Assembly: GCA_963575745.1 (NCBI GenBank) | Contig: CAUYUJ010013891.1 | Coordinates: forward strand, 48,900 to 112,899 | Source of the DNA: Prorocentrum cordatum | Taxonomy: Eukaryota; Sar; Dinophyceae; Prorocentrales; Prorocentraceae | DNA: 64,000 nucleotides | Direction of reading: 5' to 3' | Part shown: in pieces, positions 24,333-50,416 of the stretch | Layout: every line of letters starts with the position of its first letter | Numbering within the stretch: the first letter of the stretch is position 1 | Notes under the pieces: model-generated | What the model was told of the DNA's origin: nothing | What the model saw: the letters and a program-made list of their open reading frames with translations, nothing else | Databases searched by the model: none | Program-made: the position numbers and the translations under genes

Positions 24333-24400
24333 AAAAGGGTCAGCCCCAGGAATTCTTAGGAATCCTTAGGAATTCTTAGGAATCCTTAGGAATGCATTCC
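24333..24400. repeat. CCTTAGGAATT repeat, left flank of compound satellite
   Basis: Four to five copies of AGGAATCCTT/AGGAATTCTT words, each partly self-complementary. The same words flank the other side of the satellite (26,068-26,215), so they bracket it. Confidence 0.85.
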
Positions 24401-24790
24401 CAGAACACCATTCCTGTACCATATTTTGATTGCCCAGAGCCAACTGTAGGCCACTTCGTGTTCTTCGTCTTCCCAGAACACCACTCCCAGGCCACATGTT
24501 GAATGCCCGGAGCCAACCGTAGGCCACGTCGTGTCTTCCCAGAACACCATTCCTGTACCATATTTTGATTGCCCAGAGCCAACTGTAGGCCACTTCGTGT
24601 TCTTCGTCTTCCCAGAACACCATTCCCAGGCCACATTTTGAATGCCTAGAGCCAACTGTAGGCCACTTCGTGCTCTTCGTGTTCCCAGAGCACCATTCCT
24701 GTACCATATTGTGATTGCCCCGAGCCACTTGTGGGCCACTTCGTGATCTTCGTGCTCCCAGAACACCAGTCCTGTGCCATATTTTGAATG
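24399..24790 (-). repeat. Tandem array, about 72-bp unit, six copies
   Basis: Units start with CCCAGAACACCATTCC at about 24,399, 24,473, 24,537, 24,611, 24,683 and 24,757 (spacing 64-74). They alternate between a type continuing TGTACCATATTTTGATTGCC and a type continuing CAGGCCACATNTTGAATGCC, so the array has a two-unit higher-order pattern. ORFs through it are repeat artefacts. Confidence 0.85.
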
Positions 24791-24792
24791 CA

Positions 24793-26067: not shown

Positions 26068-26215
26068 AATCCTTAGGAATCCTTAGCATTCCCTAGGAAT
26101 CCTTAGGAATCCCTAGGAATCAAGATTCCTAAGGATTCCTAAGGTTTCCTATGGATTCCTAAGGATGCCCAAGGATACCTTAGGAATCCCTAGGAATCCT
26201 TAGGCTTCCATTGGA
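26068..26215. repeat. CCTTAGGAAT repeat, right flank of compound satellite
   Basis: CCTTAGGAATCC words are followed by the reverse-complement words GGATTCCTAAGG (26,125-26,185). Unlike the left flank, this side contains both orientations and can fold on itself. Confidence 0.85.
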
Positions 26216-26281
26216 TCCTAAGGCCGTTGCCACTGCGACTGTCATTGCGAATGCGACTGCGACTGCGAGAACAGCAGAATT

Positions 26282-32531: not shown

Positions 32532-33110
32532 ATGACAGAAAGCGCGCGTAGCATCGCGACTCATTCGTCGGGAGAAATAGCAAAGGGAGGTGTGGGAGGT
32601 AGGCAACCGGATGGTCAGATGACGGAAAGCGCGCGTAGCGTCGCGATCCGTTAGTCGAGAGAAAAACAAAGGGGGTTGTGAGGGCTAGGCAACATTGACA
32701 AAGGGGTTTGTGAGGGCTAGGCAACCAGCCGGTCAGATGACGGAAAGCGCGCGTAGCACCTCCATCCGTTAGTCGGGAGATATAACAAAGGGGGTGTGGG
32801 GGGTAGGCAGCCGGCTGGTCAGATGACGGAAAGCGCGCGTAGCGTCGCGATCCGTTAGTCGAGAGAAAAACAAAGGGGGTTGTGAGGGCTAGGCAACATT
32901 GACAAAGGGGGTTGTGAGGGCTAGGCAACCAGCCGGTCAGATGACGGAAAGCGCGCGTAGCACCTCCATCCGTTAGTCGGGAGATATAACAAAGGGGGTG
33001 TGGGGGGTAGGCAGCCGGCTGGTCAGATGACGGAAAGCGCGCGTAGCGTGCGGTCCGTTAGTCGGAAGGAGTGAAATTAGGGGGAGTTTGAGGGGGTGGC
33101 ATTTGTAGCC
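32526..33110 (+). repeat. Higher-order satellite, about 205-bp unit made of two subunits
   Basis: GGTCAGATGACGGAAAGCGCGCGTAGC occurs at about 32,609, 32,731, 32,815, 32,934 and 33,019. It alternates between continuations GTCGCGATCCGTTAGTCGAGAG and ACCTCCATCCGTTAGTCGGGAG. Equivalent subunits are 203-206 bp apart, so the array is dimeric. A diverged copy starts it at 32,526 and another lies at 33,304-33,355. Confidence 0.85.
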
Positions 33111-34812: not shown

Positions 34813-35041
34813 GACCCCGCCCCCACAGTACGGCGCTAGCGAAAGCGCGGCCTGCTTTAAGGCCGCGGGACGTGCCAGCCGCGAAGCGGTTGAGGCGGGC
34901 CCTCAGGAGACGATGACGATGATGGCGGCAGCGGTGCAGCCCCCCCCCATTTTGCTGCTGCGCTGGCCGCACGCTCCTCCCGCCGGCGGTGACGCGCCAG
35001 GCGGGTCCCTCCTTCCGCCACGCGAAGCGGGCCTCGCCGCC
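34813..35041 (-). repeat. Split direct repeat B2 (3' terminus of the element)
   Basis: 229 bp beginning GACCCCGCCCCCACAG on the plus strand. About 98% identical by eye to B1 (35,240-35,467). Differences include C-tract length, GACGCGCC versus GACACGCC and CCGCCACG versus CCGCCGCG. Confidence 0.92.
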
Positions 35042-35108
35042 GGTGCCGTAGGACACCGAGGCAAAGCCCAGGGTGGGTGGGCAAAAGAGGGCCCCTTTGG
35101 GCCCTGGG

Positions 35109-35239
35109 AGGGCTTTGAGCCCCGAAGGCTTGAGCGGGAGAGAGGGAAAAGGAAGGGCAAGCAGAGGCAGGAGCAGGGAGAGAGAAAACCCAAGCCGACT
35201 GGGGAGGGCGGGGTCCAACCGTTTAGGACAAACAACTAA
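35109..35239 (-). repeat. Split direct repeat A2
   Basis: 131 bp, from AGGGCTTTGAGCCCC to AGGACAAACAACTAA on the plus strand. Identical to A1 (50,287-50,416) except for one extra A in the GGGAAAAGG run. It directly abuts B1 at 35,239/35,240. Confidence 0.93.
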
Positions 35240-35467
35240 GACCCCGCCCCCGCAGTACGGCGCTAGCGAAAGCGCGGCCTGCTTTAAGGCCGCGGGACGT
35301 GCCAGCCGCGAAGCGGTTGAGGCGGGCCCTCAGGAGACGATGACGATGATGGCGGCAGCGGTGCAGCCCCCCCCATTTTGCTGCTGCGCTGGCCGCACGC
35401 TCCTCCCGCCGGCGGTGACACGCCAGGCGGGCCCCTCCTTCCGCCGCGCGAAGCGGGCCTCGCCGCC
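35240..35467 (-). repeat. Split direct repeat B1
   Basis: 228 bp matching 34,813-35,041. Together with A2 it forms the internal junction that duplicates the ends of the element. It lies just downstream (minus sense) of the 3' untranslated region. Confidence 0.92.
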
Positions 35468-36362
35468 TTTGTTCTATAATACGGGTGCTGCTGCCAGTGC
35501 CCCCGCACACTGGCCGCCTGGCGGGTTCTACGCGCCGGCGTGCTGTGTGGGCGCCCTGATGGGCGTCGCCAAAACTGGGTGCCAGGCGTTGCGTTGCCGG
35601 CACCGTCTAGGCACTGAGTCACGCATCGCCTGGCGTGTGCGCCGGCGCGCGTGTGAGGGCCCGACTGGCCCTCTGTCTGCCGACTGCCGCCAGGCAACTG
35701 ATGCCGGCGTGTGCGGCTGTCCTCCGCGAGGCTAGGCCTTGGGCTCGCGCCGGTACCTTGATTGCCGGCGGAGCCCGACCTCGGGCTGAGGCCCGAGGGT
35801 GTTGTCGCTGGCGCTTGGCGCGGGCCGGCACTTGGCGTCCCCGTCGGCGCCGCGGCCTCCAGATCTCCCGGCTCCCCGCCTCCGCAAGTGCCCAAAGTGC
35901 ACGGGGCGGGCAGGGTCCGGCCCCTGACAGAGGGGGATCCCCGGGCCGGCGCTGGGGTGCGGGCCCGCGCCTGCGCATGAATTCGAGCGCTGCGGCCGCC
36001 CGGGCCGTCGGACTGCCAGCTACTGTAGCACAGCTGGCGCCAGTATGCCCGGCACGCCCAGGCTTGGTATAGAGAGCCGGCGTGCCAGGCGGGTTCCGGC
36101 GTGATCCTCGTCCAGGGCTGCAAGGGGACCCACGGTATCCCAGGCGCTAGTGGGGCCCTGACGGACGGACCTGCACGCATGTTTTGCCGTGAGGTATTAG
36201 CCAGTGCTGAAGGCGCGGGCGGGTGTACCCTGCGAGCGCGCGGCTACTCGCCGGCGGGGCAGGTGGCTGGTGGCTGCGCCCAAGCACGCACGGCGTGAAG
36301 CCGGCGGCTTGGGTTGGGCGCACGCCAGGTGCGTAAGCACCGGCGGCGCCCGCTGCGGCCTC
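35468..36362 (-). other. 3' untranslated region of the element, rich in GCCGGC palindromes
   Basis: About 0.9 kb between the recombinase stop and B1 without a coherent ORF. GCCGGC/CGCCGGCG palindromes occur at least a dozen times (for example 35,531, 35,637, 35,701, 35,942, 36,074, 36,249), often next to CCAGGCG words. This density is not seen in the coding part. Confidence 0.55.
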
Positions 36363-39300
36363 TCATGGGCTCTCGCGCCTGGCGCTCTCGGCGCCGGCGG
36401 CAGCTCTGCTGGGGGCGCTGTCCTTCGCCGGGTTGGTCAACGAGGAGTTGTCCCTGGCCATCTTGCCGGAGATGCCCTTCATCGGCTCGTGCGACTCCCA
36501 CAGGTAGCCGTGGAACGCGTCCGACTGCCAGCGCCCGAATCGGCGCACTCGGGAGAGGTCCTCGGTCACGTGGTACATTGCAGTTGCCCCGCCGATCCTC
36601 AGGGAGTGGCTGCCGATCTCTTCCCTGGAGAGGCCGGCGGCCAGCCCCGCGACCGTCAGGAAGTGCTGCACCTCTGCCCTGCGGATCGGTGTACCTGACG
36701 CCCAGCGGAAAAGGGGCAGCCGTTCCTCGGTGCCCTTTATCCGCTGAGGATGGTGAGCCTGGAGCCGCTCCATCGCCGCGATCGGGCAGAGCGATGTGCC
36801 GGCGCGGTAGTGGTTCCTCACCGTCCCGACGTTGAGCTGGTCCGTCTTGCTGCCCTTGATGTAGATCACCATCTCGTCGGCGTCCTGGAAGCTGGCCACG
36901 CGCCTCCCCTCCTTCTTGGGCTCCACGTCCTCCCCGTGCAGCACGCGCTCGAAGGACCACGAGCGCCCGTCCTGGAGGAGGTACTCTGAGGCCCTCAGGA
37001 GGAAGAAAAACGCTGTCACGATGGCCGCCCAGATGACCACGGCATCCTCCTCGGGGAGCTTGGCCTCCTGCTGGAGAAAGCCGCGGAGCCATTCGAGCAT
37101 GGCTGGCGTGACGGGCTTCTTCCGCTTGGTCTCGGGCCCCTGCCAGCGTTTCAGCCCTGCCAGCGTGCTCCAGAGGCGGCCTCTGTGGAGCAGGGGGTCC
37201 GAATAGCCAGCCACCAGGTGGGCGTAGCGCACCGCGAAGAGCTTCTGCTTGATGGTCCCCTCGGTCCTCCCGACGACCCGCGCTAAGAGGACGGCGAAGT
37301 TGATGAGCGCCTCTTCATCGGCCAGGCGCTCCTCGCGATCACGTCCTGGGAGCCAAGGGCTGAGCCCCTGCGCCTGGCGCACGGCAACCCAGAGCCGCCA
37401 TCCCCCCTCGTAACCTGCCCTTGTGCCTTCACTGAGTTTCTGCAGCATGGCCTCCATCTTCTGCTGCGCGAACCAGCCGGCGTAGTTGGCTCCGCCAGGC
37501 TCAGCGCGGCCGGCGGGGGCGAGCTCCTTCCCGGGGTAGTTGGTCTTCCGAGCCACGCCCAGCGCTTGCGGCCTCACCAGGTCGGTGGCTGGCATCTCTT
37601 TGGCACGCCGAGGGCTCTTTTTGCGAGGACTTTTCGAGCGTGTCACACTTTTATCCAGCTTGACCTTCTCGGCGGCTGGGGCCTCCCGGGGCCCGATGAG
37701 CGTGTCCTCGTCGATCATCTTGAAGCGGACTGCTTGGGCGCGCCGGCGGTTCTTGTGCATCTCGTCGGTGAGCGCTCCTCCGGCCCTCACCTCGTCCTCT
37801 GCTGCCAGTGCCAAGGCGGGCTGATCTGGTGCCTGGGCCCAGGCGCGGAACCAGCGCTTGGTGGCCTCCCACGCAGCTTGCTCCTCTGGGTCATGGCACA
37901 CCCCGGCCCGCTGCGTGCTGGTGCTGTCGAGAGCCTCTGTCACCGCGGTCAGCACTGCCTCCGCGGTCCTCGGCGGGAGCGCCCTGGCGGCGCCCTTGAG
38001 GAGTTCGTCCTCGGTGAAGCCCTGGGCTCGCAAGTGGGTCCACTCGTCGTTGGTCCCTCCCTGCACTCGCCAAACCTCTTGGGGCGTCAGGGCGCGGACC
38101 GTGCCTCCGCCCCCTCCGGTGACACGGAGGAGCGTCGCCCCGGGTCCTTGGAGCTCCGTTCCAGGCCAGCGGATCGTGCCCACCGGCCCCTCCTCGCTGT
38201 AGATCAGGTGCTTCGCTCCATCCTTCTTGAGGTGCCCGACCGGCTTGAGGAGGAGGGGGTCGCTGGTGGACTGGATGCGGGGGTCCCATGACACCTCGCC
38301 TTGTTGGTCGAGCCACAGGTGGTCCTTTCCCTTGTCCAGGAGGGGCTTGACGCTGGCAGCTCGGGAGCAGGCCGGCGGCATGTTAATGCACGCCAGGCCC
38401 ACCCCCGCTTTCCGACGTCCGCCCACGAGCACCCGCCTGGTCCTCGTCGTGGCGTCCCCGTGGTGCGTGCAGACCACCCCGAACTTCGAGACCATGTAGC
38501 CCAGCTGCTTAAGTGCCTTCTCGAACCTGGCTGTGTCGACCCCGGTTGGGGCATCCACGACCACCACTTCCGGGCTCTCCTGAGTTGCTGCGACGAGGAA
38601 AGCCTCCATCTCTCGGCCCTTGGGGTCCAGGGACAGCGACGCCATGAGCCATCCCACCTTCTGGTTCTCCTCGGGCTCCGATCCCCCGAGGCGCTTGAAG
38701 GCCTTCGTGTACGGGTTGATAAGGCCCCCCACTTCTCGACCCAGCTTCCCGCGGAGCGGGAGAGCTCTCGGCAGTCCATGTCCTCGCTGAAGTGCTCGGT
38801 GTCGAAGGGCAGCCTCGGCCACGGGGCCCGTCTCTCCAGGGAGCCTGAGAAGGCGCTCCTTGGCGTCCTCCAGTATTTGGCCCCAGGCTGCGGGAGGCTC
38901 CAGGCGCGTCCATCCTGAGGTGGCCAGCGTGTCGTGAACCTTCTTGACCTCTTCGCGGGTAAGCCAGTCGGCCACTTCAGTATGGTAGGTCCTCACGAAG
39001 AACGAGACGATGCGGCATCCGTGCATGGCTTCGATCCTTTCCACCAGACGTATCAGGTGGCGGGCCAGGGCGTTCTTGGGGCTTCTCTTGGTGAGCCAGG
39101 CCTTCACATTCTGGTTGTCCGTGACGTAAAATACCAGCTCGCCTTCCCACTTCGAGCCCTGCTTCGTGGCCAACGCGACCACCGCCAGCAGCTCGACCAC
39201 CGCTATGATCCAGCCTTCCTCGCCACTCTCGCCTCTGACCGCGTGACTCAGGGCCTCGAGCAGTGGTCCGGCGTCCGTGGCCATGTACTCCGGCGTCGGC

Positions 39301-41555
39301 GCGGCCTCCCCTGCAGTCGCGCTCCCCCAGTCAATGGCACCGATCGAGGAGGTGGTAGCATCTCCGCCCGTCCACCTTGTGGTACGTGCTGTCCCTGGCA
39401 AGGCGAGGCGTTCGCGCACCGACAGGGCCTGCGTGAAGCTGGCCTGGAAGGTCGTGCTCCAGGCCTCCGGGACATCGAAGAGCATCCTCAGAAACCCCAC
39501 TGACGCGTCCCACTCCTCCCAGGCGAGCTCGACTTCCTCAGGTGTACCCTTCGGTTCTGCCCAGCTCGTCCCGCTGCTGAGGAGTCGGTCCAGGGCGGGA
39601 AGCTCGGGGCGGAGTGCTGGCTGTGCTGACGCCCAGAACTGGGCACCGCCTCGCAGCTCTTGGGCGACTTTCAGCGGGGCCCGCCTGGATCCTCTGAGCT
39701 CCGGGAGGGCGAGCAGGTACTGAGCTTTGATGCATCTGGGTTCTGGGAGCCTGACCACCTTCGTGTCGAAGTTCATGTGGAGGCCCCAGATCAACTGCTC
39801 TGCCGCGAACTCCCCCTCGACGTCCAGTTTCTCCTCGTTAACTGCGTCCGGGCCCCAGACTCGCTTCATGGCCCCGTCGAGCTCCTCGGCCGAGAGCCAG
39901 GGTCGGAGGCCCACCAGCGGCTCGAGGACGACCCCGTCGTCCATGAGCCACTTGGAGGCGTACCTGACGGTATCGTTGATCCTGGGCGCCGGCGGCTTCC
40001 TCCTCTCGTGCTCGCTCTTGGCCGCCCAGGCGAACGCCATGTGCTCGCCCGGGCTGCCGGCCCAGCCGAAGACCAGCACGCCGTGGATCAGGATAACTCG
40101 CCCTGGCACCCCGACCTCCTTGCCCGGGAGCGTCGTCCCGAACTCTGGCACGGCAGCTGGCTCCAGGTGGTGCCACTTGAAGGCCCTGGCCACGTCGCGC
40201 TTCGCCACCACCTGCTGGACGCCCGGGTGCCTCGCCCCCCACCAGAGGCTGAGCCTCGCAAGCCCCCTGTGGAGGGGCTGCTTCGCTGGCGGGTGCTGCT
40301 CCTTCGGGGAGAAGGCGTTGGCCGCCCGCATGTCGTGGATCGGCCGGCCCTCTTTCGAGATGGTCCGATCCGGCAACATTTTGGGGGCCCTCCCGCTGGG
40401 CGACTCGACCAGTGCCGAGGCGGCAAGCACGTCCTCGACCTCGTCCGAGGCCCAGAGGACAACGCCGTAGCGGCTGTCCTTCCAGGCCTTCTCGAACATC
40501 TCCAGCGCGTGGTCCACCGCCGAGGAGTGCGACTTGGCCTGCGTGCGCGTCCGCTCCTTCGTGCGTCGCACGGGTACTCCCCCGGTGGCCATAGCCCGGA
40601 GGTAGGCGGCGTGGTGCGGGTCCAAGGACTTCTGCACGTCTTCTTGAAGTACTCCGCCCAGCGGGTTCCCATGGACCTCCTCCCGCGCGTGCTTCAGCAA
40701 CTCGGCAGCCCTCTCGACGCTGCCGGCGAGGCGGAGGAGTGAGTTGCCCCGCTTCACGACCTCTGGCACCTTCTCGGGCTGGAAGGTGGGGTGGTCCGCG
40801 CACCACTTGACGTAGTCGCGCGCCTCCTCCTGTGCCCTCCCACCGCTCAGCGCCGCCGGCGCCTCCCCCAAAGGGGGTCCCCCACAGCGGCCTCCCCGCG
40901 GAGGGGGTGGCCAAGGGGGCGGCGTCATCGGCGGCATCCCCGGCGGCCGGGCGAGTTGCCCAGGGAGAAGCGGGCGCCGCCCTGGAGGTCTCACCAGGGG
41001 CCCGACTACGTGATCTGGGGGCACGAGCGGCCTGGCTGGATCATCTTGGCGGGGTCTGGGCTGCGATGGCTTTCCCTTGGAGGTGGCGCGCAGCTGGGCA
41101 CCCAGTGATCTCGGCTTGGGCCTGAGTGTGAGCTTTTCTCCGGACGTCCCTGCGCTGCCGGCGTCGGCCCCCCCAGTGGGGGGGTCTCCGCTGGAGGTCG
41201 TCGACCTGCCTGCGGCACGCCTGGCTGCTTCCACGACTGTCATGGCCGAGCGGCTTCTCCTTGTTGGTGCGGCCTTCTGGGGGATCGTGGCGGGGAGTCT
41301 GCTCTTCCGATGCTGGGCTGGGTCCGAGGGGGTCTCCAGTACCTCGGGCGGTGGAGGTGCACTCGGCGGTAGCTCTGCGCCTGCGGCGGGGGCGGGGCCT
41401 CCGCTGCCGCTGGCCCCAGGAGAGCTCTGGAAAGTCTCCTCCCTGCTCCGCCTGGCCGCCTCCGCTTGCCCGGGCCAGAGGCTCAGGGGATCCGGGTCCT
41501 CTGGGAGGGGGGGGTCTATTCCCTCCTCGGTCCTCGCGTACGGCTTCTCCACCAC
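36363..41555 (-). CDS. Element pol: RT, RNase H, methyltransferase-like segment, tyrosine recombinase
   Basis: A 1,730-codon open frame. RT: palm Asp454 (AKRDVARAFK), motif B GWAGSPGEHMAF (497-508), catalytic MDDG with Asp539 and Asp540. RNase H: Asp742, Glu788, Asp813, Asp863. Residues about 960-1,205 resemble the C-terminal half of a DNA C5-methyltransferase: FEKALKQLGY, then TTRTRRVLVGG (1,036-1,046, motif VIII-like), RALTPQEVWRVQGG (1,154-1,167, motif IX-like) and a motif X-like end. A Pro-Cys catalytic loop was not found. Tyrosine recombinase: Arg1521, Lys1570, His1650-x-x-Arg1653, Trp1676, Tyr1684. The N-terminal 250 residues are Pro-rich. The true start is unclear because the frame opens at a non-ATG codon and probably continues from the upstream ORF by a frame change near 41,570. 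Confidence 0.88.
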   Translation of the reverse strand: MVEKPYARTEEGIDPPLPEDPDPLSLWPGQAEAARRSREETFQSSPGASGSGGPAPAAGAELPPSAPPPPEVLETPSDPAQHRKSRLPATIPQKAAPTRRSRSAMTVVEAARRAAGRSTTSSGDPPTGGADAGSAGTSGEKLTLRPKPRSLGAQLRATSKGKPSQPRPRQDDPARPLVPPDHVVGPLVRPPGRRPLLPGQLARPPGMPPMTPPPWPPPPRGGRCGGPPLGEAPAALSGGRAQEEARDYVKWCADHPTFQPEKVPEVVKRGNSLLRLAGSVERAAELLKHAREEVHGNPLGGVLQEDVQKSLDPHHAAYLRAMATGGVPVRRTKERTRTQAKSHSSAVDHALEMFEKAWKDSRYGVVLWASDEVEDVLAASALVESPSGRAPKMLPDRTISKEGRPIHDMRAANAFSPKEQHPPAKQPLHRGLARLSLWWGARHPGVQQVVAKRDVARAFKWHHLEPAAVPEFGTTLPGKEVGVPGRVILIHGVLVFGWAGSPGEHMAFAWAAKSEHERRKPPAPRINDTVRYASKWLMDDGVVLEPLVGLRPWLSAEELDGAMKRVWGPDAVNEEKLDVEGEFAAEQLIWGLHMNFDTKVVRLPEPRCIKAQYLLALPELRGSRRAPLKVAQELRGGAQFWASAQPALRPELPALDRLLSSGTSWAEPKGTPEEVELAWEEWDASVGFLRMLFDVPEAWSTTFQASFTQALSVRERLALPGTARTTRWTGGDATTSSIGAIDWGSATAGEAAPTPEYMATDAGPLLEALSHAVRGESGEEGWIIAVVELLAVVALATKQGSKWEGELVFYVTDNQNVKAWLTKRSPKNALARHLIRLVERIEAMHGCRIVSFFVRTYHTEVADWLTREEVKKVHDTLATSGWTRLEPPAAWGQILEDAKERLLRLPGETGPVAEAALRHRALQRGHGLPRALPLRGKLGREVGGLINPYTKAFKRLGGSEPEENQKVGWLMASLSLDPKGREMEAFLVAATQESPEVVVVDAPTGVDTARFEKALKQLGYMVSKFGVVCTHHGDATTRTRRVLVGGRRKAGVGLACINMPPACSRAASVKPLLDKGKDHLWLDQQGEVSWDPRIQSTSDPLLLKPVGHLKKDGAKHLIYSEEGPVGTIRWPGTELQGPGATLLRVTGGGGGTVRALTPQEVWRVQGGTNDEWTHLRAQGFTEDELLKGAARALPPRTAEAVLTAVTEALDSTSTQRAGVCHDPEEQAAWEATKRWFRAWAQAPDQPALALAAEDEVRAGGALTDEMHKNRRRAQAVRFKMIDEDTLIGPREAPAAEKVKLDKSVTRSKSPRKKSPRRAKEMPATDLVRPQALGVARKTNYPGKELAPAGRAEPGGANYAGWFAQQKMEAMLQKLSEGTRAGYEGGWRLWVAVRQAQGLSPWLPGRDREERLADEEALINFAVLLARVVGRTEGTIKQKLFAVRYAHLVAGYSDPLLHRGRLWSTLAGLKRWQGPETKRKKPVTPAMLEWLRGFLQQEAKLPEEDAVVIWAAIVTAFFFLLRASEYLLQDGRSWSFERVLHGEDVEPKKEGRRVASFQDADEMVIYIKGSKTDQLNVGTVRNHYRAGTSLCPIAAMERLQAHHPQRIKGTEERLPLFRWASGTPIRRAEVQHFLTVAGLAAGLSREEIGSHSLRIGGATAMYHVTEDLSRVRRFGRWQSDAFHGYLWESHEPMKGISGKMARDNSSLTNPAKDSAPSRAAAGAESARRESP
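38722..38825 (-). other. Out-of-frame segment within element pol
   Basis: Over about 34 codons the main frame gives low-quality Arg/Leu sequence (RHRALQRGHGLPRALPL). The neighbouring frame gives RLPFDTEHFSEDMDCRELSR and GSWVEKWGAL, which looks like real protein. The segment is bounded by C- and G-runs (GGCCCCGTGG and TGGGGGGCC), suggesting two compensating single-base indels, from mutation or consensus error. Confidence 0.5.
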
Positions 41556-42750
41556 CTCGTCTTCCGAGCTCTCCGTCGGAGTCCTCGTCGTCGCTCGTGG
41601 GCTCCTCTTCCGCTTTCTCGTACACGATTCTCTGGCGCTTCTTTGCGGGGGCGTCGTCCAGCTCCCCTGCTTTCACCATCTTGCGGGTCAGCTTCTCGAG
41701 GATGTCAACGTACTCGCTCGCGATCTCGCCTTGCTCCTCGGAGGGGGTGCCGGTCCAGCTCCGCGGTAGGTCCTCGAACATGGAGCTGATGCCCTCGATC
41801 AGGAGCTCCCGCGCTCTCCTCCTCCGATCAGGTCCCGTGGGATCGTCAGCTGGAACCCCGAGCAGGTTATTCAAGATGCACTCCGCTTCGTGGCACTTGT
41901 TCTCCCCATCCAGGATGGCTGAGGGCAGCGGGGTCTCATCCTCCCAGGCTGGATCGAGAGGGGTGGCCGCGCCTTGCCCGCAGGGGGGTTCTGAGCTGGC
42001 CCGGCGGGGATGCCCGGCTCGCGCTTGCTCTGCTTCGCGCTTGCCGGCATCCCTCGCACGACGGGCCCGACGGCGCTCCTTAGCCTCGGCCAGCTGTATT
42101 TGCAGCTCCTTGATGCGCTTCTCCTCCTCCTCCAGGACGCCTACCTCGGCGGCCTTGGCAGCTTCGAGCTTCCTCCTTATGCTTTCCAGCTTGATGCTGT
42201 CGGCTGAGCTGCCTCCGCTGCTGGACACTCCAGCGGGCGCCTCGCGGCTTTGTCTCTGGAGGGCTTGGGCGGCAGCCTGCTGGAAACGCCTCCCTCCTGA
42301 GTGCGGCGGGGGGGCCCGCCTGTTCCAGACAGCGCCAAGCTCTGGGCTGCCAAAGCCCTGGGAGCTGACGCGGTCTGCGATCCTCAGCGTGACGCTGCGG
42401 TGGGATGCGGGGGTGGCCTCGCCGCGGTGCCACGGCGCCTCCTCACGCTCCTCGTCCGCGGCCCTCTTGATCCAGCGCGGCGCCCAGGCTGCCCAGTTCC
42501 CGATGTCCTCTTTCCCGATCCACAGGATCAGGCGTTCCCCGGGCTCGACACGATCGTCGTCTTCTAAGGGAGGTCCCTCGGCTCCTGCGGTGTCCCCCTC
42601 GTCGGTGTAGACGAACAGGCGAAGCTCCTCGGGGCTGAGGACGTCGTCGCGCAGCCATCTGCAGGTTATGAGGACGCTCTGGAGCTCGTGCGCGTACATG
42701 GGGGCCCCCGGGATTGGTATCCATCGATCCCCACGCTGTGGAAGGATCAC
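41041..42750 (-). CDS. Element ORF C: linker with coiled coil
   Basis: A 569-codon frame opening at a GTG and in fact continuing upstream a short way (ADEPVRVILPQRGDRWIP). RLFVYTDEGDTAG and RLILWIGKEDIGNW near the start look globular. A long charged helix follows (EEEEKRIKELQIQLAEAKERRRARRAR, about 42,010-42,150). Next come LPRSWTGTPSEEQGEIASEYVDILEKLTRKMVKAGE (about 41,660-41,770), an acidic stretch and a degenerate Pro/Arg tail. The tail after about 41,570 is probably out of frame, since the pol frame takes over there. No enzyme motif was recognised. Confidence 0.6.
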   Translation of the reverse strand: MILPQRGDRWIPIPGAPMYAHELQSVLITCRWLRDDVLSPEELRLFVYTDEGDTAGAEGPPLEDDDRVEPGERLILWIGKEDIGNWAAWAPRWIKRAADEEREEAPWHRGEATPASHRSVTLRIADRVSSQGFGSPELGAVWNRRAPPPHSGGRRFQQAAAQALQRQSREAPAGVSSSGGSSADSIKLESIRRKLEAAKAAEVGVLEEEEKRIKELQIQLAEAKERRRARRARDAGKREAEQARAGHPRRASSEPPCGQGAATPLDPAWEDETPLPSAILDGENKCHEAECILNNLLGVPADDPTGPDRRRRARELLIEGISSMFEDLPRSWTGTPSEEQGEIASEYVDILEKLTRKMVKAGELDDAPAKKRQRIVYEKAEEEPTSDDEDSDGELGRRGGGEAVREDRGGNRPPPPRGPGSPEPLARASGGGQAEQGGDFPELSWGQRQRRPRPRRRRRATAECTSTARGTGDPLGPSPASEEQTPRHDPPEGRTNKEKPLGHDSRGSSQACRRQVDDLQRRPPHWGGRRRQRRDVRRKAHTQAQAEITGCPAARHLQGKAIAAQTPPR

Positions 42751-44267
42751 CCTGACTGGCTCATCGGCTGCCTGCTTGAAGGATCAGCGGCTCCTTCTCT
42801 TCCAGGGTCGTCTCCCCCAGGTTCGTCGTCTCCGCCATCTCCTCCAGGGCCCGGTGGTGGTGCTCCTCGGTCGGGATCCCTCTTTCTCGCCTTGTTGCGT
42901 TTCCACCCTCCTCTCTTCTTGCCTCTGTTCGCGCATTGCCATCCTCTGAGCTCAGCTGGATGGTCCTCCTCCGCCTCCTTCTCCGTGACTGGCCCGTCCT
43001 GGAAGCGGAAAGGAGGGGGGGGGTCCGCCAGGTGAACCCCGTCACCGGCTCCCGCCGCCATTTTGTCTCCGGCCCTCGTCGTGACGATGGGCTCAAGCTT
43101 CTTCAGGAGCTTCGCGGGGGAGGTCCCCGCTCCCGCGGCCTTGACGACCTCGGCCCAGGCAGCGCACAGCCTTGTCGGGTACTGGCCGGCGTAGCGGGTG
43201 CGACGTAGTCCGCGCTGTCCGACCTGGAAGCCGAGGATGCTCAGCTCCTCCCGCAGTGCCTTGGCCACTGGGGGAGCTCCGCTGAGGACGCGCCCGCCCC
43301 CGTGCAGGCACGGGGGCGACCGGTGTGAGATCTTGGCCACGAAACTGTTGGCTCGATCACGTCCGTAGTACAGGGCCACGGCGCCCTCCGGGAGGTCCTC
43401 GAAGGCCTTCCCGGTGCGTGGTTCGACCCGGCTCCAGTGGAAGTTCACGGGCCCCAGCTTGCCGACGAGGTCGTTCAGTGGGCGCAGCAGCTCCTGTCCG
43501 AGCTGTGGGGCTTCCAGGGTCTTGGTATCTGCGGCGAGACCCTGAGCCTGCACGCCTGCCAGGGCCAATCGATTGGTCAGGCTCAGGATGTCCTTCTGCT
43601 CGGGCTGACTGAGCGAGAGCTTGGAGGAGTTGTAGTGGTCGATCTGGGCCTGGGTCAGGTCGTAGGGGAGAGGCCCTTCCAGGGCGACGTGTTCGTGCTG
43701 GTTGGTGCAGCGCCTCGCCAGAGAGAGCGCCCAGGGGTAGAGGCCCTTCGAGACCATCCAGAACGTCAGCTTGCGGTGCCGTTTCGCAGGCTCCTCTGGG
43801 GGCCCTAGCCCCCACTCGCACATGGCGACGGAGATAATCCGTGCTCCTGTGCGCTTCTGCAGCTGCTTGATCCTGGCCCTGTCCCAGATCTTCGGGTAGC
43901 GTCCATCGCTGGCCGTGTTCTCGAGCATCCACTCTCGATCGTTGGCGTCGAGGCGCTCGCAGAGGTCGGCGGCGAAATCGGTCATGATGTTGCTGTCGAT
44001 CTCCGCCTGGACCGTCCCGTCGCCGTCCGGGTGCTCAAACGTGCGGGTCCCGCCGTTCTTGAGGCACCAGGCTGGGTGGGTTGTGCGCGGGGGGGCCAAC
44101 TGGTAGACGTTCGCCTCGTCGGGGCCTGGCGCTGCCCCAGCGTCGAGGAGGAGCCTCTCTCGCACTTGGGGATCGAGGATGTCGTGCTCCTCCTGGGGCC
44201 CGGTCTGGGCCAGGGGGTCCTGGAAATACTCGACAGATGGGGCCGTCTGGAGTCCAGCTTCTCGCAT
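42747..44267 (-). CDS. Element ORF B: middle of the polyprotein, unknown function
   Basis: A 506-codon frame starting at an ATG at 44,267, but its frame is already protein-like upstream of that ATG (GHPREIFAGTGNWTKA). I therefore read it as the continuation of ORF A after a frame change near 44,320. Contents include FAADLCERLDANDREWMLENTASDGRYPKIWDRARIKQLQ, LTFWMVSKGLYPWALSLARRC and VGKLGPVNFHWSRVEPRTGKAF. It ends in a basic, Gly/Pro-rich tail. No named domain. The stop at 42,747 overlaps the GTG-initiated ORF C by four bases (GTGA), though the C frame is also open a little upstream. Confidence 0.6.
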   Translation of the reverse strand: MREAGLQTAPSVEYFQDPLAQTGPQEEHDILDPQVRERLLLDAGAAPGPDEANVYQLAPPRTTHPAWCLKNGGTRTFEHPDGDGTVQAEIDSNIMTDFAADLCERLDANDREWMLENTASDGRYPKIWDRARIKQLQKRTGARIISVAMCEWGLGPPEEPAKRHRKLTFWMVSKGLYPWALSLARRCTNQHEHVALEGPLPYDLTQAQIDHYNSSKLSLSQPEQKDILSLTNRLALAGVQAQGLAADTKTLEAPQLGQELLRPLNDLVGKLGPVNFHWSRVEPRTGKAFEDLPEGAVALYYGRDRANSFVAKISHRSPPCLHGGGRVLSGAPPVAKALREELSILGFQVGQRGLRRTRYAGQYPTRLCAAWAEVVKAAGAGTSPAKLLKKLEPIVTTRAGDKMAAGAGDGVHLADPPPPFRFQDGPVTEKEAEEDHPAELRGWQCANRGKKRGGWKRNKARKRDPDRGAPPPGPGGDGGDDEPGGDDPGREGAADPSSRQPMSQSG

Positions 44268-47200
44268 CGCCTTGGTCCAGTTCCCTGTCCCTGCGAAGAT
44301 CTCGCGCGGATGCCCCGCGCGAAGGCGGGTCTGCGCAGGAGCGGTGCGAGGCCGGAGAAGTCCTCCTCCTCGAGCTCCTGGTTCCCGACGGCGCCCTCAC
44401 GCGTTGGGAGCTGAGCCTGCTGCATACGTTTGCAGTGCATGCAGGGTGGGGGCCGGCTCGGGATCACGGGCCCCGCGACCTCCTCTGACTCCAGGTACAT
44501 CTCCCAGCCGACTGTGAGTAGCTCGCGGACGGGTTTCCCAGCTAGCGTCCAGGTCTTGAGGATCTCCCCGGATGCCCGGCCTCGCTTGTTGGGACTCTGG
44601 CCGCCGACGACCGGTGGCCTGAGCACCCGCATATGCCCTCGGTGGATCATGACGTGGACTTCCCTCTTGCTGGTCTGCGTCGGCAGGACGGAGTCGATCT
44701 CGAGCTGGTTCCAGTGGTTGATCCTCCAGACCCGGACGGTGGTCGTGTTGAGGGCACTCAGGGGGAAGACCGACATGCACCTGAAGTCCTTGTCGTGGTG
44801 CGGGTGCTGGACATCATGGCAGTGCATCCGGAGCTCGGCTTCGCGTGGTGAGACGAAGGGAGGTGCATCCCCCAATGCGGCGGAGGCGGTGGTGGCTCCA
44901 TCCCACAACTCGCGGCGGAGCTGAGCAGCCAGGGCCTTCACGGCCGGCGCATCAGGCTCCTTATCCCCCCAAAGCAGGGCGGCCGCGATGTGGAGCACCA
45001 GACACTGCCTGAGCTCTGCGTCGCCTTCCTTGAGGCCGAGCCGGGTTCTCATCTCTTCGTCGGGCTGAAGCTCGTCCTGGAAGTCGAGATAGTCCCATTC
45101 TTGGTCTTGCACCGTGAGCTTCCCGCGGCCAACTCCAGCCTCCTCGTCCCAGGAGGCTCCTCCAATGCTGAGGTCCTGAGTGCTGCTCCTCCCCGCCTTT
45201 GATCCCAGCCTGTCGAGGGCCCGACCGGCTTCCTCGGCGAGGGTTGGCCCCCCGTCCCGAGTCGCCTCCAGCAGTACTTCCTCCAAGCTCAGGGAGATGC
45301 CCTCTGAGCTGGCGCGTGCAAGCCTGGCCAGGGCGTGACAATGCAGGTAGTCGCTGATGTCGCCCAGCGTCGCGATGGTCCCGCTCTCCAGGATCTTCTC
45401 AATGATGTTCCATCTTTCGAGAGCAGCGGGATGAGTCGTCTCACTGGTCCCCTCCACCGCGGGCGCGTTGGCGTGGGCGTCCAGCAACCAGTCCTCCTCG
45501 GGGCCCTGGACGGCTTGCCTGAGCTCCTCCTCGAGGGCGGTGGTCTGAATCTCGTCGAAGGCAGCTGGGGGGGACCAAACAGCCGGCGAGCCTCCCGCTC
45601 GGCTGCCCCCCGCAGGGGCCCCGGGACCTTCTCCGGCGCCTCCCCCAGCCCTTTTGCTGTCTGCTTCGGCCTTGGCCTGGGCCCTGAGCTGAGCCACCCG
45701 CCCGTCGACCGAGGCGGGGTCGACCTTAGCGCCAGACTTCAGGCCGCCGCGCCTGATGAGCTGCGCCTGCACGGTCCAGTCCAGGCTGCCAAGCCCCTTG
45801 ATGGCCTCGTGGGAGTGGGCGCAAGTCCCTGCCGCCTTGGGGCAGCCAGCCCAGGTGCAGGCGTCCCAGCAGATGACCTTCCCGTTCTTGTCCCGGGGGG
45901 CATGCTTAACTGAGCGCCCGATCTCGCTGGACGTCAGCGCCCTCCCTGCTGGGTACGCCCGGGCGGCGGGCCGCTTCTTGGCAGCAGCCTTCTTGACGGC
46001 GGCCCCTGCCTTTCCAGTGCCTGGGCCAGCTCCGGTGGGCGCCTCCTGATCTGCTGGGGTGTGTTCGTCGGCCTTCCCAGCCTTGGGGGTCCTCGAGGGG
46101 CCGGCGTGGAGGTTCTGATGAAGGAACCTCTGCAGCCGCCGGGCCTGGCGAGGGACGCGCACCACCTGGTAGTACCCGTCCGGTGCGTCGAGGTCGTACA
46201 CGTTCGGGAAGGTAAGCCACGCGCTCCCAGACGGTCCTGTAGGGGCGAGGGCGATGGTTTTGATGTCCTCCCGGCGCGGGTTGGTGAGCCCCAGGATGCG
46301 GCACACCTCCCTTCGCTTCTCCCGAAGCTGCTCGCACCAGGTTGCAGCAAGCTCCTCCCAAAGGCTGTGCACATAGTCTGCTGGGAAGGCCACGTCGTCC
46401 TCCTCGTAGGCAAGGCGGAGGGTCTCCAGGGCTCGGCGTCGCTCGGGCTCGTGCATCCGCCCGTAGACCAGCCCGAAGACGGTGATGGCGTTCTCGGCCT
46501 GCCTCACCCACTGAGAGAAGACGACCGGGTGCCGGGGGCGCGGCTCGAGCTTGCACGTGGTGGGCATGGTGTAGGCGTCGAACACCTCTGCTTTGCAATG
46601 GGGAAAATCAGCCACGGAGATCGACCACTCGGCCAGATCCTTGTGGTCCCGCCCCCCCCAACAGAAGGCGGCGATGCCGTACGCCATCCTGTTCGTCACC
46701 GTCGTCGGCCAGTTCGCCGCCTGCATCACGTGCTTCGCGTGCTCGCAGGCGCGCTTGAGGCCATGGAACAACTCCCGCCCGGTCAGCGTACCGCAGACCT
46801 CTACGTCGAGGGTGTCGCAGCCCCGCGCCAGGTACACGTCCAGCTCCTCGGCCCGTCCGATGGCGCCGAGGGTGCCCCGCTGCGCTACTTTCTCTTCCTC
46901 GCCGGACCTGCGGAGGCTGTCCACCGCCTGCAGCAGCCGCATGTTGTCCAGGTGCTGCTGTTCTTGACCGTTCTGGAGGACTTGCGCGTAGGTGGAGAAA
47001 GCGGCTGAGGGTTCACCTTCTCCGGCTCCTGCGGCATACCTACGATCTGGCTGCCCTGGGGTTTTAACCAGTCCTCCGTGGCCATAAGCGCTCCTGTTGG
47101 TGAACATCTGCCCGAGATTCGGTACAAGGCTGGGCATCAAACCTGGCGGAGACAAACGAGTCGCTCCCGGCACGCGCACGCCAGGCGGGGTAGCCGGCGG

Positions 47201-50200
47201 CGGCAATGGCGGAGCGCTCGCGGCGGCGTCCAGCCCAGGGGGAACTCCAGGTGGGCTGGGCTCTTGGCTGGCATCGGGCTTGCGCTCGGTGTTTAGCTTC
47301 AAGAGGCCACTAGCGAGGGGTGGGTTCACCCCTTCATCTTTTTCGGCTCGAACCCGCTCCAACTTTCTTTCCCACCTGTCGATGTGCGCCTGGTACTTTG
47401 TCCGTTCCTCGGTCCCGCTGCTGCGCATGAGACGCTTGGTGTACTTGATGAGATGCTCCAAGACCACGGTGATGTCCTCGTCGTATCCTGCCGCCACGCT
47501 CTGCAGCGCGGAGGCGTCGTCCGATCCTTCTTCGTGAGCGGCGAGGTACAGCCCCAGCATGGCCTCCCCGGTGTTCTCCTCTTCGTGGCCCTTCCCCGCC
47601 GGGCTGCGTGACGAGCGCCGAGGGGCTGAGGAGGCCAGATCACCCTCCTCGCCCAGGCCCCACCCGACGCCGAAAGGGGGCTTGGGGGAACTGCTGCGAT
47701 CAAGCCTCGCCCAATGCTTCTTGAGCTGCGTGTCCAGCTCGTCGGAGGTGGGCTGCGGTACTCCGGGGGCGTCACCTGAGGTGCCCGCTGGATGCCGGTG
47801 CACGAGCAAATCCCCGCGGGCCCGAAGCTGAGCCCACTGAGGGCGGCCGATGCGCTTGGTCTTCCCGCCGACGGGGACCCCGTTCCAAGGACGCAGCTTC
47901 TCCCACATGGTGCTGCTCACGACGACGCCGTGCGCGCCGATCCCCATCTCCTCGGCCCCAAGTGGTGGGTGATACAAAAGCTCCTCCAGGTAGCCTGCGG
48001 GGAGCCTTCCCTGGTCGCTGGCGACGGGGGCGTACTCGATCCCCGCGGTCTTGAGGGTGAAGCAGACGTTCTCCTGGCCTTCCGCCGAGTAGCCTTTGCA
48101 GTGCGGCTCCTCCACGTCTACTACAGTCGTGCTGCCATCTCCGGTGGGCCCTCCCCCTGGACGGGACTTCCCCAAGAAGATAACCCATTGCGGGCCGGCG
48201 GCCCAGTGGACTCGCACACGCAGTACGAGAGGGTCACCCTGCTCAATCTCCTCGTCGGGGGCGGGGCTGGCGTCTCGCGGGAGGGGCGCCCTCGGAGAAA
48301 GCGGCGCTTCGAACCTGACACCAACAGGCGGACCTCGCGGCGAAGCTGATGCCTCCCGTCGGTGCTGCCCAGGGGCTGCGTGTCCGCGATGGCCCTCCGG
48401 TCCCCGTGCTCCGTCTGCGGGGGGAGCTGCGTTGACTGGGACGCCCTGCTCACGCGCCCGTGGGCTGCGACTGCGAACCGTCCGGCGCCGCAAGCCCAAG
48501 GTCGAGAGGAATCCGCGGCCCGGGACAGCTGCAGCTGCTTGCACTGCTCGACCTGCTTCTCCACCCAGATGAAGAAGACATAGTGGCACGCCCTCTGCGT
48601 TGCCAACTGCCTGGCGGTAACAAGTCACTTGCGAGCATTTGTCACGATATCGAGATGCTCGGTAGACCTGGGCATGATGCGCGCAGAGATGGGCGAACGA
48701 ATTCCGCCCGTCGCTGGGTGGCGGGAGGTCTGAAGCCTGCCCGTCTTCGAAGAGCAGGGTGGTCGGCTCTGCCTCCGCGGCGCCCCTGCAACCGTCGGGT
48801 GCCAAGGGGCGAGCGCCGCCACGTAGAACGATACCCACCCGAACAGCTTCACATGGCCTGTCCTCGGCCTCCACCTCCGACTCTGACTCCTGATCCAAAA
48901 CTTCTGCGATGCTCCCTGCAACGCCTGGCTCCGCAGCGCCTGTCTTGCGACGGCGGCGTCGCCGGCAGCAGAAGGAGCAACCGCAGGAAAGGATGCAGTA
49001 AAGGAACACGATCACTTTCCAGATGGCTCTCCCCAGGTCGGCGACGGTCCGCCAGAGCAAGAAGACGCCCCGGCAGGAGGTGAACCTGGCGTGGGAGCCG
49101 ATGTCCACGATCGCCTCGGAGTCCAAGGCAGCGTACTCTTTACAATGAACTTCTCCAGGTTGATCTCTACAGGCCAGGTTGCGACACAGGTGAATGGAAC
49201 GGCCCTCGAGCGACTCCAGCTTCTGACGGAGTGCGCGTGAGCTGGCCCCCTTCACGCCCAGGTAGTCTACCCAGAGGCCCTTCCGGTCGATCCGCTTGGG
49301 CTCCGAAAGGTCGATCTTCAGCCGGGCCACGTGGTCGTCGATCTTGATCAGCACATCGTTAGGCCGCGTCCCAGTCCCACGACCCTTCACCTTCTTGCTG
49401 TAGTACTCCGTGGTCGTGGCTGGTCCGGTCTCTGGCCCCATCCAATTGATCTGGGTGAGGGCAGGCGGAGCCGGCGGCAGGTACTTTTCGGCAGCTGCAT
49501 CGCCAGGCTCTCGCCGGCGGCACTTAGTGCACCGCGCCAGTAGACCGATCAGCCAGAGGGCGGCTGCGCATGGGGCCAGCAGGGTACGACAGATGTGAGT
49601 GAGGAAAGCCAGCACTGCCAGGAAAGCCAAGAGGATGAATGTCCATGCCACGGCAGGCCAAGCGGCCCCGAAGACCGTCAGGCCCAGCTTCTCGAGGGCA
49701 TAGAAGAACCACCCACCATCCTTGGTCAGCCAGCCCGTCTCGGCATGGGTGGAGAAGGCGCTCCCAAGACTGTCGAGCTTCTCATAGGCGACTCCGCCCA
49801 TGCCACTCAGGCGCCAGGCCCAGGCGCCCGCGCGTAGAGGCTTCAATCCCAGCGCCCAGACACCCCAGCCGCCCACCCAAGACTCCTCGCTGCCCGGGTC
49901 CTTGGGGGGGTCGCTGCTGTTGTCGACTCCCCCGGCGGCCTGGGCTGGGGGCGGGGGCGGCGCTCCCGGCGGCCCACTGTCGGGCGGCGCCTGGGGGCTG
50001 CCTGCATCTCCACCCTCCTCCTCGGGCTCGCCGATCTCCATGCCGTACTCGGAGTCGTCGTAGTACGGCACGGTGTACCCGAACGGGGCCTCCTGGGCCG
50101 CAGCCGGGTGGCCCCAACTGGCGCGGGCGACAGCGGAGCTGAGGGGCCCGCGCCAGTCGTAGGCGGCGGCGCTGGTGACCAGCGCGGCCAGCCCGCGGGC

Positions 50201-50233
50201 CGCACCTGCCAGCGCGGGGCGCCGGGCAGCCAT
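43982..50233 (-). CDS. Element ORF A: very large Gag-like ORF with membrane segments and a Cys/His finger
   Basis: Open from 50,395 (non-ATG, inside repeat A1) to 43,982. The first ATG is at 50,233, codon 55 of the open frame. In open-frame numbering, residues 234-290 contain two hydrophobic helices (WTFILLAFLAVLAFLTHIC, LLAPCAAALWLIGLL) and 444-476 a third followed by CGCSFCC and an Arg run. A Cys/His cluster lies near 571-611. Pro-rich linkers follow. A helical Gag/capsid-like region runs about 46,990-46,110 (for example VFSQWVRQAENAITVFGLVYG). CWDACTWAGCPKAAGTCAHSH (about 45,815-45,880) is a CCCH-like finger suited to nucleic-acid binding. Residues after about 44,320 are out of frame. Membrane helices in a Gag-position ORF are unusual. 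Confidence 0.75.
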   Translation of the reverse strand: MAARRPALAGAARGLAALVTSAAAYDWRGPLSSAVARASWGHPAAAQEAPFGYTVPYYDDSEYGMEIGEPEEEGGDAGSPQAPPDSGPPGAPPPPPAQAAGGVDNSSDPPKDPGSEESWVGGWGVWALGLKPLRAGAWAWRLSGMGGVAYEKLDSLGSAFSTHAETGWLTKDGGWFFYALEKLGLTVFGAAWPAVAWTFILLAFLAVLAFLTHICRTLLAPCAAALWLIGLLARCTKCRRREPGDAAAEKYLPPAPPALTQINWMGPETGPATTTEYYSKKVKGRGTGTRPNDVLIKIDDHVARLKIDLSEPKRIDRKGLWVDYLGVKGASSRALRQKLESLEGRSIHLCRNLACRDQPGEVHCKEYAALDSEAIVDIGSHARFTSCRGVFLLWRTVADLGRAIWKVIVFLYCILSCGCSFCCRRRRRRKTGAAEPGVAGSIAEVLDQESESEVEAEDRPCEAVRVGIVLRGGARPLAPDGCRGAAEAEPTTLLFEDGQASDLPPPSDGRNSFAHLCAHHAQVYRASRYRDKCSQVTCYRQAVGNAEGVPLCLLHLGGEAGRAVQAAAAVPGRGFLSTLGLRRRTVRSRSPRAREQGVPVNAAPPADGARGPEGHRGHAAPGQHRREASASPRGPPVGVRFEAPLSPRAPLPRDASPAPDEEIEQGDPLVLRVRVHWAAGPQWVIFLGKSRPGGGPTGDGSTTVVDVEEPHCKGYSAEGQENVCFTLKTAGIEYAPVASDQGRLPAGYLEELLYHPPLGAEEMGIGAHGVVVSSTMWEKLRPWNGVPVGGKTKRIGRPQWAQLRARGDLLVHRHPAGTSGDAPGVPQPTSDELDTQLKKHWARLDRSSSPKPPFGVGWGLGEEGDLASSAPRRSSRSPAGKGHEEENTGEAMLGLYLAAHEEGSDDASALQSVAAGYDEDITVVLEHLIKYTKRLMRSSGTEERTKYQAHIDRWERKLERVRAEKDEGVNPPLASGLLKLNTERKPDASQEPSPPGVPPGLDAAASAPPLPPPATPPGVRVPGATRLSPPGLMPSLVPNLGQMFTNRSAYGHGGLVKTPGQPDRRYAAGAGEGEPSAAFSTYAQVLQNGQEQQHLDNMRLLQAVDSLRRSGEEEKVAQRGTLGAIGRAEELDVYLARGCDTLDVEVCGTLTGRELFHGLKRACEHAKHVMQAANWPTTVTNRMAYGIAAFCWGGRDHKDLAEWSISVADFPHCKAEVFDAYTMPTTCKLEPRPRHPVVFSQWVRQAENAITVFGLVYGRMHEPERRRALETLRLAYEEDDVAFPADYVHSLWEELAATWCEQLREKRREVCRILGLTNPRREDIKTIALAPTGPSGSAWLTFPNVYDLDAPDGYYQVVRVPRQARRLQRFLHQNLHAGPSRTPKAGKADEHTPADQEAPTGAGPGTGKAGAAVKKAAAKKRPAARAYPAGRALTSSEIGRSVKHAPRDKNGKVICWDACTWAGCPKAAGTCAHSHEAIKGLGSLDWTVQAQLIRRGGLKSGAKVDPASVDGRVAQLRAQAKAEADSKRAGGGAGEGPGAPAGGSRAGGSPAVWSPPAAFDEIQTTALEEELRQAVQGPEEDWLLDAHANAPAVEGTSETTHPAALERWNIIEKILESGTIATLGDISDYLHCHALARLARASSEGISLSLEEVLLEATRDGGPTLAEEAGRALDRLGSKAGRSSTQDLSIGGASWDEEAGVGRGKLTVQDQEWDYLDFQDELQPDEEMRTRLGLKEGDAELRQCLVLHIAAALLWGDKEPDAPAVKALAAQLRRELWDGATTASAALGDAPPFVSPREAELRMHCHDVQHPHHDKDFRCMSVFPLSALNTTTVRVWRINHWNQLEIDSVLPTQTSKREVHVMIHRGHMRVLRPPVVGGQSPNKRGRASGEILKTWTLAGKPVRELLTVGWEMYLESEEVAGPVIPSRPPPCMHCKRMQQAQLPTREGAVGNQELEEEDFSGLAPLLRRPAFARGIRARSSQGQGTGPRRCEKLDSRRPHLSSISRTPWPRPGPRRSTTSSIPKCERGSSSTLGQRQAPTRRTSTSWPPRAQPTQPGASRTAGPARLSTRTATGRSRRRSTATS

Positions 50234-50286
50234 GACACGCGCGCTTCCGGGCGCCGCGGGCGCCCAGACCTCCTGAGGTCGGCTCC

Positions 50287-50416
50287 AGGGCTTTGAGCCC
50301 CGAAGGCTTGAGCGGGAGAGAGGGAAAGGAAGGGCAAGCAGAGGCAGGAGCAGGGAGAGAGAAAACCCAAGCCGACTGGGGAGGGCGGGGTCCAACCGTT
50401 TAGGACAAACAACTAA
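50287..50416 (-). repeat. Split direct repeat A1 (5' terminus of the element)
   Basis: 130 bp matching 35,109-35,239. The minus strand starts TTAGTTGTTTGTCCTAAACG. It overlaps the first codons of the long ORF A frame (from a TTG at 50,395), but no ATG lies inside it in that frame. Confidence 0.93.

Follow-up and report, generated by a model that had tools for sequence, protein, structure and literature searches.

In the part of its published description considered here, SymbioDIRS-Dnmt3 of Symbiodinium is a tyrosine-recombinase (YR) retroelement laid out as A - coding - B - A - B, in which a cytosine methyltransferase is carried in Pol together with the reverse transcriptase (RT), the RT is divergent and aligns poorly with Pfam, and the YR occupies a separate open reading frame (ORF) (PMC5890265). 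In DIRS1, as covered by the available portion of its source, the repeats are inverted and the overlap of the internal regions is a 3-bp motif matching the target (PMC3266345). The DNA analyzed here, called the window throughout, comprises 64,000 nucleotides of the dinoflagellate Prorocentrum cordatum (assembly GCA_963575745.1, contig CAUYUJ010013891.1, positions 48,900 to 112,899 of the forward strand; G+C 62% by base counts) and contains a 15,604-bp element on its minus strand at 34813..50416. Judged from its sequence, this element is very probably a YR retrotransposon with split direct repeats, ordered A1 - coding region - B1 - A2 - spacer - B2, that occupies roughly a hundred or more loci in this one dinoflagellate genome and that would spread through RNA, in a cycle of templated renewal and of insertion by the YR instead of an integrase of the usual kind. 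Its design is close to that of SymbioDIRS-Dnmt3, with split repeats of the PAT/Ngaro type.

On the minus strand, the element consists of A1 (130 bp), ~14.8 kb of mostly coding sequence, B1 (228 bp), A2 (131 bp), a spacer S (67 bp), and B2 (229 bp). Self-comparison gave 97.8% identity between B1 and B2 (4 mismatches and 1 gap in 229 positions; E 1e-108) and 99.2% identity between A1 and A2 (0 mismatches and 1 gap in 131 positions; E 8e-61), and these E-values exclude chance as the source of the repeats. B1 and A2 abut at 35240/35239 with zero shared bases, the minus strand reading ...GGGGCGGGGTC up to the junction and TTAGTTGTTTG... from it, and the outer ends of B2 and A1 are the same half-sequences that meet there. 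The original prediction for this DNA had placed the half-repeats correctly to the base and had recognized the free ends in the junction; the order of its B1-A2-B2 block also held, but the 67-bp spacer that parts A2 from B2 had gone unmentioned.

The layout recurs elsewhere in the genome. The 655-bp B1-A2-B2 block was used as a query against the P. cordatum assembly itself (4,128,499,153 bases in 21,875 contigs), and 40 of 410 candidates, the window's own copy included, were scored; all 40 matched the block at 96-100% identity. The exact 32-base string across the B-A joint occurred 118 times (54 + 64; places recorded for 100 of the 118) in the 4.13-Gb genome, and the reversed control string 0 times. 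All 40 copies read at the 3′ end have the order B1-A2-S-B2, with the joint between B1 and A2 in each and a base change near the joint in a few, and the 24 copies read at the 5′ end have A followed by coding sequence, so that the predicted split direct repeats of PAT/Ngaro type were found again in other copies. Reading outward at the 3′ end was possible in 39 of the 40 copies (window included; the last runs into N), and all 39 stop at the same base, GGGGCGGGGTC, after which the sequences differ; three pairs of copies have a common 3′ flank, and 36 distinct flanks among the 39 were therefore used for counts. At the other end, 5′ regions were obtained for 36 of the 39 other copies (the remaining three lie too close to a contig end) and for the window, 37 altogether, and an end was taken as readable when the match to A1 started within its first 3 bases. 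By this definition, 24 of the 37 were readable, and all 24 begin at the same base with TTAGTTG (once TTCGTTG).

Departures from this arrangement were seen at individual loci. On contig C3312 (L087, 68000-69400), two B-A joints lie 427 bp apart in the order int-B1/A2-S-B2/A-S-B, where the slashes mark the joints; the extra 427-bp A-S-B unit is in tandem, has perfect B-A joints, is 98.1% identical between units, and may have arisen by unequal crossing-over or by insertion of a small circle. Copies on C1826 and C21649 (L041, L044, L078, L081) have a common 3′ flank and different 5′ flanks, and the C1826 copy, with 11 differences between its A1 and A2, is probably recombinant, rearranged, or misassembled.

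Paired repeats were considerably more alike within a copy than between copies. The B1-B2 difference averaged 0.0136 within copies versus 0.0273 between copies (40 copies), and the A1-A2 difference averaged 0.0115 versus 0.0306 (24 copies), with 0 of 5000 permutations reaching either result; the well-shared variable sites extended over columns 8 to 186 of B and 52 to 100 of A, and the first 50 bases of A were nearly invariant. Most simply, the two members of each pair already match when a new copy arises, in agreement with the circle-junction model. The insertion in the window had been described as young, and this is right in a relative sense, the repeats within a copy differing by 1.2-1.4% on average, but its reading frame is already broken in three places relative to other copies.

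This co-renewal of A1 with A2 and of B1 with B2 supports templated repair of the ends by the B1-A2 block, and the following cycle is proposed. The transcript would start within A1 and end within B2, so that the outermost end bases would be absent from it; the RT would then make cDNA, for which the B1-A2 block, holding a complete B end and a complete A start, would act as a template for restoring the ends and linking them into a circle with the same B-A junction. Finally, the recombinase would open this junction and insert the element, causing neither duplication nor loss, at a site for which it has a loose preference.

The joints of the element with its flanks were assessed in the 23 copies with both flanks, 21 of which have no direct repeat at the joint; of the remaining two, one shares 4 bases within an A-run and the other 12 bases within a GGA-run. 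No target-site duplication (TSD) was found. For copies lying inside repeated DNA, another repeat unit served as an uninterrupted sister site in place of an empty one. A 100-base segment of the C17662 5′ flank, itself uninterrupted, matched the joined flanks of that copy at 96% without gaps, and at C15407 all eight of eight neighboring repeat units crossed the joint position, with no gap up to 35 bases away. At C13889, where the units compared came from a related repeat of the window, 6/6 passed but a one-base gap lay at a distance of 4 to 7 bases, and at C16972 4/4 units of a low-complexity repeat passed; C13469 (14/17 units) and C19033 (165/180 units) are both of low complexity and carry little weight. 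In the well-checkable cases (two clean sites), insertion took place between neighboring bases without loss or gain of sequence, and, because B1 and A2 also abut without a common base, the overlap is zero. The flanks carry no fixed bases in common with the element ends; the base before A1 was A in 14 of 24 copies (chi-square p 3.7e-6), which survived correction for the 28 positions tested, and weaker biases, specifically no C at -2 (n=24) and no A at +1 (n=36), failed it. At 1890-4928, the window itself has a 77-bp repeat in a long tandem array, and it is a relative of this repeat that flanks the C13889 copy, where the empty site is a rough one.

Four long ORFs tile the element on the minus strand (Table 1). 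The frame changes in the window fall at three places, near 44.3, 42.8, and 41.6 kb, and other copies differ from the window copy by indels at each of them: the same short indel near 44.3 kb in 17/17 other copies read there, an indel cluster near 42.8 kb in 3/3, and an indel near 41.6 kb in 4/4. L053 reads through the first frame boundary (2,162 codons) and L084 through the other two (924 codons). Because these pieces read across all three breaks, the family probably encoded one ancestral frame of ~4,600 codons, as reconstructed from overlapping pieces of different copies. The window copy is decayed, with its frame split by three indel clusters and a conserved cysteine lost, and several other copies have frameshifts of their own. 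A 2,967-codon frame in L049 crosses an assembly gap in pol-gap-gag order and was not used in reconstructing the single frame.

Variation among copies was compared with coding expectations. Private variants in piece 1 had a nonsynonymous:synonymous ratio of 243:309 versus 383:155 expected from the mutation spectrum of the same data, and shared variants had a ratio of 87:192; the selection ratios of pieces 2, 3, and 4 were 0.35, 0.22, and 0.32, versus 1.51 for a shifted-frame control (six partial copies). Because the observed values lie below the expectation and below the control, respectively, all four pieces look protein coding and under purifying selection. Private variants at element positions 151-6430 were biased toward A>G (0.104 per site) and T>C (0.112) compared with G>A and C>T (~0.044-0.054). 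The two strands were affected alike, and CpG sites showed no clear excess; the bias is a GC-ward drift and not the mark of methylation decay or of editing on one strand. Two hydrophobic stretches at window positions 49012 and 49645 (minus strand), in the N-terminal part of the long frame, show few changes among copies, the second being followed by Cys- and Arg-rich runs, and this part of the product may be membrane anchored.

The product of the ancestral frame would comprise a Gag-like part, a methyltransferase-like domain, an RT, an RNase H, a second methyltransferase-like stretch, and a YR. Motifs in piece 4 were taken by us to be RT motifs A, B, and C and those of RNase H, and an RT_RNaseH profile matched this piece weakly (E=0.14-0.17). 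The tyrosine recombinase region predicted for the pol ORF is present, as indicated by the residues R-K-HxxR-W-Y, whose catalytic roles are likewise our assumption, and by a Phage_integrase match below the cut-off; the H is changed in one of three copies read. Two stretches, in pieces 2 and 4, may correspond to C5-methyltransferases by the resemblance of their motifs by eye, which for the second concerns the final motifs of these enzymes. In the first (FAGTG ... APPC ... ENT), the cysteine is kept in 17/17 other copies and lost in the window copy, and the methyltransferase assignment may be regarded as a lead. Beyond this, piece 1 had no Pfam match and one chance-level NCBIfam match (BioC, E 0.021), piece 2 had no Pfam, NCBIfam, or PDB match, and piece 3 had one weak Pfam match under the cut-off (EBP50_C, E 0.052); other matches of the ORF pieces were also at chance level (LPD15, E 0.24; deoxycytidine kinase, E 2.6).

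Table 1. Features of the element in window coordinates, with the basis of each assignment.
Feature	Position	Strand	Basis
A1, 5′ terminal half-repeat, element start TTAGTTG	50287..50416	-	self-comparison and 24 readable 5′ ends
ORF piece 1, 2137 codons, first ATG near 50233; Gag-like N-terminal region, two hydrophobic stretches, Cys/His-rich motifs	43982..50395	-	
ORF piece 2, 506 codons, frame open from 44396; methyltransferase-like motifs FAGTG and PPC-type	42747..44267	-	
ORF piece 3, 569 codons, charged linker-like region	41041..42750	-	
ORF piece 4, 1730 codons, pol: RT, RNase H, second methyltransferase-like stretch, tyrosine recombinase	36363..41555	-	
Putative RT, motifs KRDVARAF, FGWAGSP, WLMDDG, WGLHMNFD	39765..40205	-	motif reading
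Putative RNase H, motifs TDA, E, TDN, HTEVAD	38958..39293	-	motif reading
Second C5-methyltransferase-like stretch, TRTRR, LTPQEVWRVQG, ALPPRTAEAV	37953..38567	-	motif reading
Tyrosine recombinase catalytic region, LLRASE, GSKTDQ, HSLR, GRW, Y	36492..37010	-	residues and PF00589
B1, internal copy of the 3′ half-repeat	35240..35467	-	self-comparison
10-bp perfect inverted repeat GGGCGGGGTC / GACCCCGCCC, 24-nt loop	35206..35249	-	left arm ends at the B-A joint
A2, internal copy of the 5′ half-repeat, adjoins B1	35109..35239	-	self-comparison; 118 exact junctions genome-wide
S, spacer separating A2 from B2	35042..35108	-	67 bp in 40/40 copies
B2, 3′ terminal half-repeat, element end GGGGCGGGGTC	34813..35041	-	39/39 readable 3′ ends

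Several observations weigh against the reading of this element as a YR retrotransposon renewed through its internal junction. The A1 end was not readable in 13 of the 37 5′ regions: L052 reaches a contig end; L049, L054, and L064 contain N runs; L048, L056, and L063 contain mosaic stretches; L067 has no element sequence; L068, L076, and L083 have internal element sequence only; the region covered for L080 was too short to reach the A1 end; and in L055 the element is cut off at its internal position 735. Short words common to both flanks within 15 bases of the ends were in excess in true flank pairs (4-mers in 15/23 versus 189/506 mismatched pairs; 5-mers in 6/23 versus 49/506), which may reflect local composition. 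The single frame was pieced together across copies, none of which reads end to end. Among the domains, piece 4 had no Pfam RVT_1 match, PF00589 was reached at E=0.00012 with the C-terminal piece and 0.002 with the whole of piece 4, both below the curated cut-off, a single-sequence AlphaFold model of the recombinase piece had a mean pLDDT of 34, and the methyltransferase-like stretches had no Pfam or NCBIfam match (for the second, none at Pfam E<=10). At B columns 22, 36, 129, 216, and 220, sharing between B1 and B2 was at or near chance level, so that either renewal was incomplete or later mutations were laid over it; CpG decay was considered for the poorly shared B sites and dropped, C>T being 0.054 per CpG site versus 0.047 elsewhere.

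The co-renewal pattern would also be produced by in-place gene conversion after insertion, in which case A1 and A2, and B1 and B2, would owe their likeness to exchange within each copy and not to templated renewal in each round. Gene conversion is common between nearby repeats, and per-copy sharing alone cannot separate the two readings; however, A1 and A2, 15 kb apart, resemble each other as closely as B1 and B2, which are nearly adjacent (both pairs ~1% different), and among the shared states, which are spread over the repeats, are a transversion site and one with three states, and conversion is therefore considered unlikely as the source of the likeness.

An ordinary long terminal repeat (LTR) retrotransposon, with a 3′ LTR duplicated or rearranged by unequal crossing-over and mistaken for split repeats, would be consistent with the tandem gain of repeat units, which does occur, as in the extra A-S-B unit on C3312. 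Such an origin is nevertheless very improbable, given that A and B stand at opposite ends of the coding region, that the 40 3′ ends and 24 5′ ends are uniform, that the YR region closes pol, and that no TSD was found; copies with other intact ends, plain LTRs, or TSDs, any of which would speak against the prediction, were looked for, and none was found among the readable copies (L055 breaks off inside the element). The window copy had also been described as caught with its circle junction, and its internal joint is indeed the exact sequence of the joined outer ends, as a true trapped circle or a tandem insertion would show. This wording was overstated: the junction was found 118 times, and between B1 and A2 in all 40 copies read, and so belongs to the fixed anatomy of the element, which makes a trapped intermediate in the window highly unlikely. 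Assembly artefact, to which the N runs within L049, L054, and L064 and the mosaic 5′ regions of L048, L056, and L063 might point, is scarcely credible for 40 copies with identical ends, 36 distinct 3′ flanks of 39, and selection-shaped variation.

Returning to the YR retrotransposon with templated ends, the B-A joint lies within an inverted repeat (GGGCGGGGTC / GACCCCGCCC) that is perfect in 36/40 copies and that may be a putative recombinase binding site or a folded substrate; inverted repeats of at least 10 bp occur in 4 of 518 stretches of 90 nt taken from the element and in 6 of 711 taken from the window. Integron integrases act on folded single-stranded attC sites. By analogy, the recombinase might need no bases in common with its target and act on folded single-stranded cDNA, a speculative and rather improbable reading that is suggested by the hairpin with 10-bp arms, the left arm of which ends exactly at the joint, and by the zero-overlap joint in the readable insertions, the two clean sites being seamless and free of mixed strand resolution. 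If it were true, a eukaryotic retroelement would join RT-made single-stranded DNA to the genome by means of a YR.

Elsewhere in the window, a 1.27-kb array of a GCTGAG-type hexamer lies within a 567-codon minus-strand frame at 24348-26223, with AGGAATCCTT-type arrays on both sides, and a 204-bp tandem repeat with units ~94% alike occupies 32531-33064, ~1.7 kb beyond the B2 end of the element. Ten further ORFs of the window had no Pfam match at E 0.01, and Rfam and tRNA scans of the window found none. Searches for relatives in viral contigs gave pattern matches of which 0/69, 0/8, and 0/2 were confirmed, two further patterns matching nothing, and 0/8 pattern matches were confirmed in genome contigs.

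Among known systems, SymbioDIRS-Dnmt3, compared by its description only and within the part of that description available, shares with this element a dinoflagellate host, the order A - coding - B - A - B, the YR, and a divergent RT. It differs in that its YR has its own ORF, whereas here the YR lies in the 1730-codon frame with RT and RNase H and the coding region was apparently one frame, and in that its Pol carries a Dnmt3-type methyltransferase, whereas here only C5-like motifs are present and PF00145 is not reached. PAT-like elements (Pat1, Toc, Kangaroo), in the portions of the sources consulted, have the same split direct repeats A1 ... B1A2B2 and encode RT, RNase H, a methyltransferase, and a YR (PMC4157794, PMC3266345), but in the element here the methyltransferase-like motifs look, by eye, like those of C5 enzymes. 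Ngaro and VIPER, as presented in the available parts of their descriptions, also follow the order A1-[ORFs]-B1A2B2 with internal repeats downstream of the YR (PMC8547959, PMC6681497, PMC4157794); both are given there as having no methyltransferase domain (PMC4157794), whereas the element here has methyltransferase-like motifs below profile detection, and Cafeteria Ngaros are typically ~6 kb, compared with 15.6 kb here (PMC8547959, PMC6681497, PMC4157794). Of the original Ngaro/PAT-type assignment, the split-repeat type therefore stands, but the Ngaro label is doubtful. DIRS1-like elements likewise carry an internal copy of their joined ends (the circular junction) and make no TSD, according to the portion of the source available, but with inverted repeats and a 3-bp overlap in place of the direct half-repeats and zero overlap found here (PMC3266345).

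No description of this element was seen in the portions of the open-access literature searched, subscription papers and Repbase being outside the scope of the search. To our knowledge, most of the support for the circle-junction model of YR retroelements is anatomical, and many recent copies in one genome allow population-style tests of it; in those made here, paired repeats were renewed together, readable ends were invariant, and insertion was seamless and without overlap where checkable, whereas DIRS1 follows a 3-bp rule. What looks like one giant frame, with its two methyltransferase-like parts, differs from the described layout of SymbioDIRS-Dnmt3, and the element adds to the dinoflagellate retroelements with cytosine-methyltransferase-like genes.

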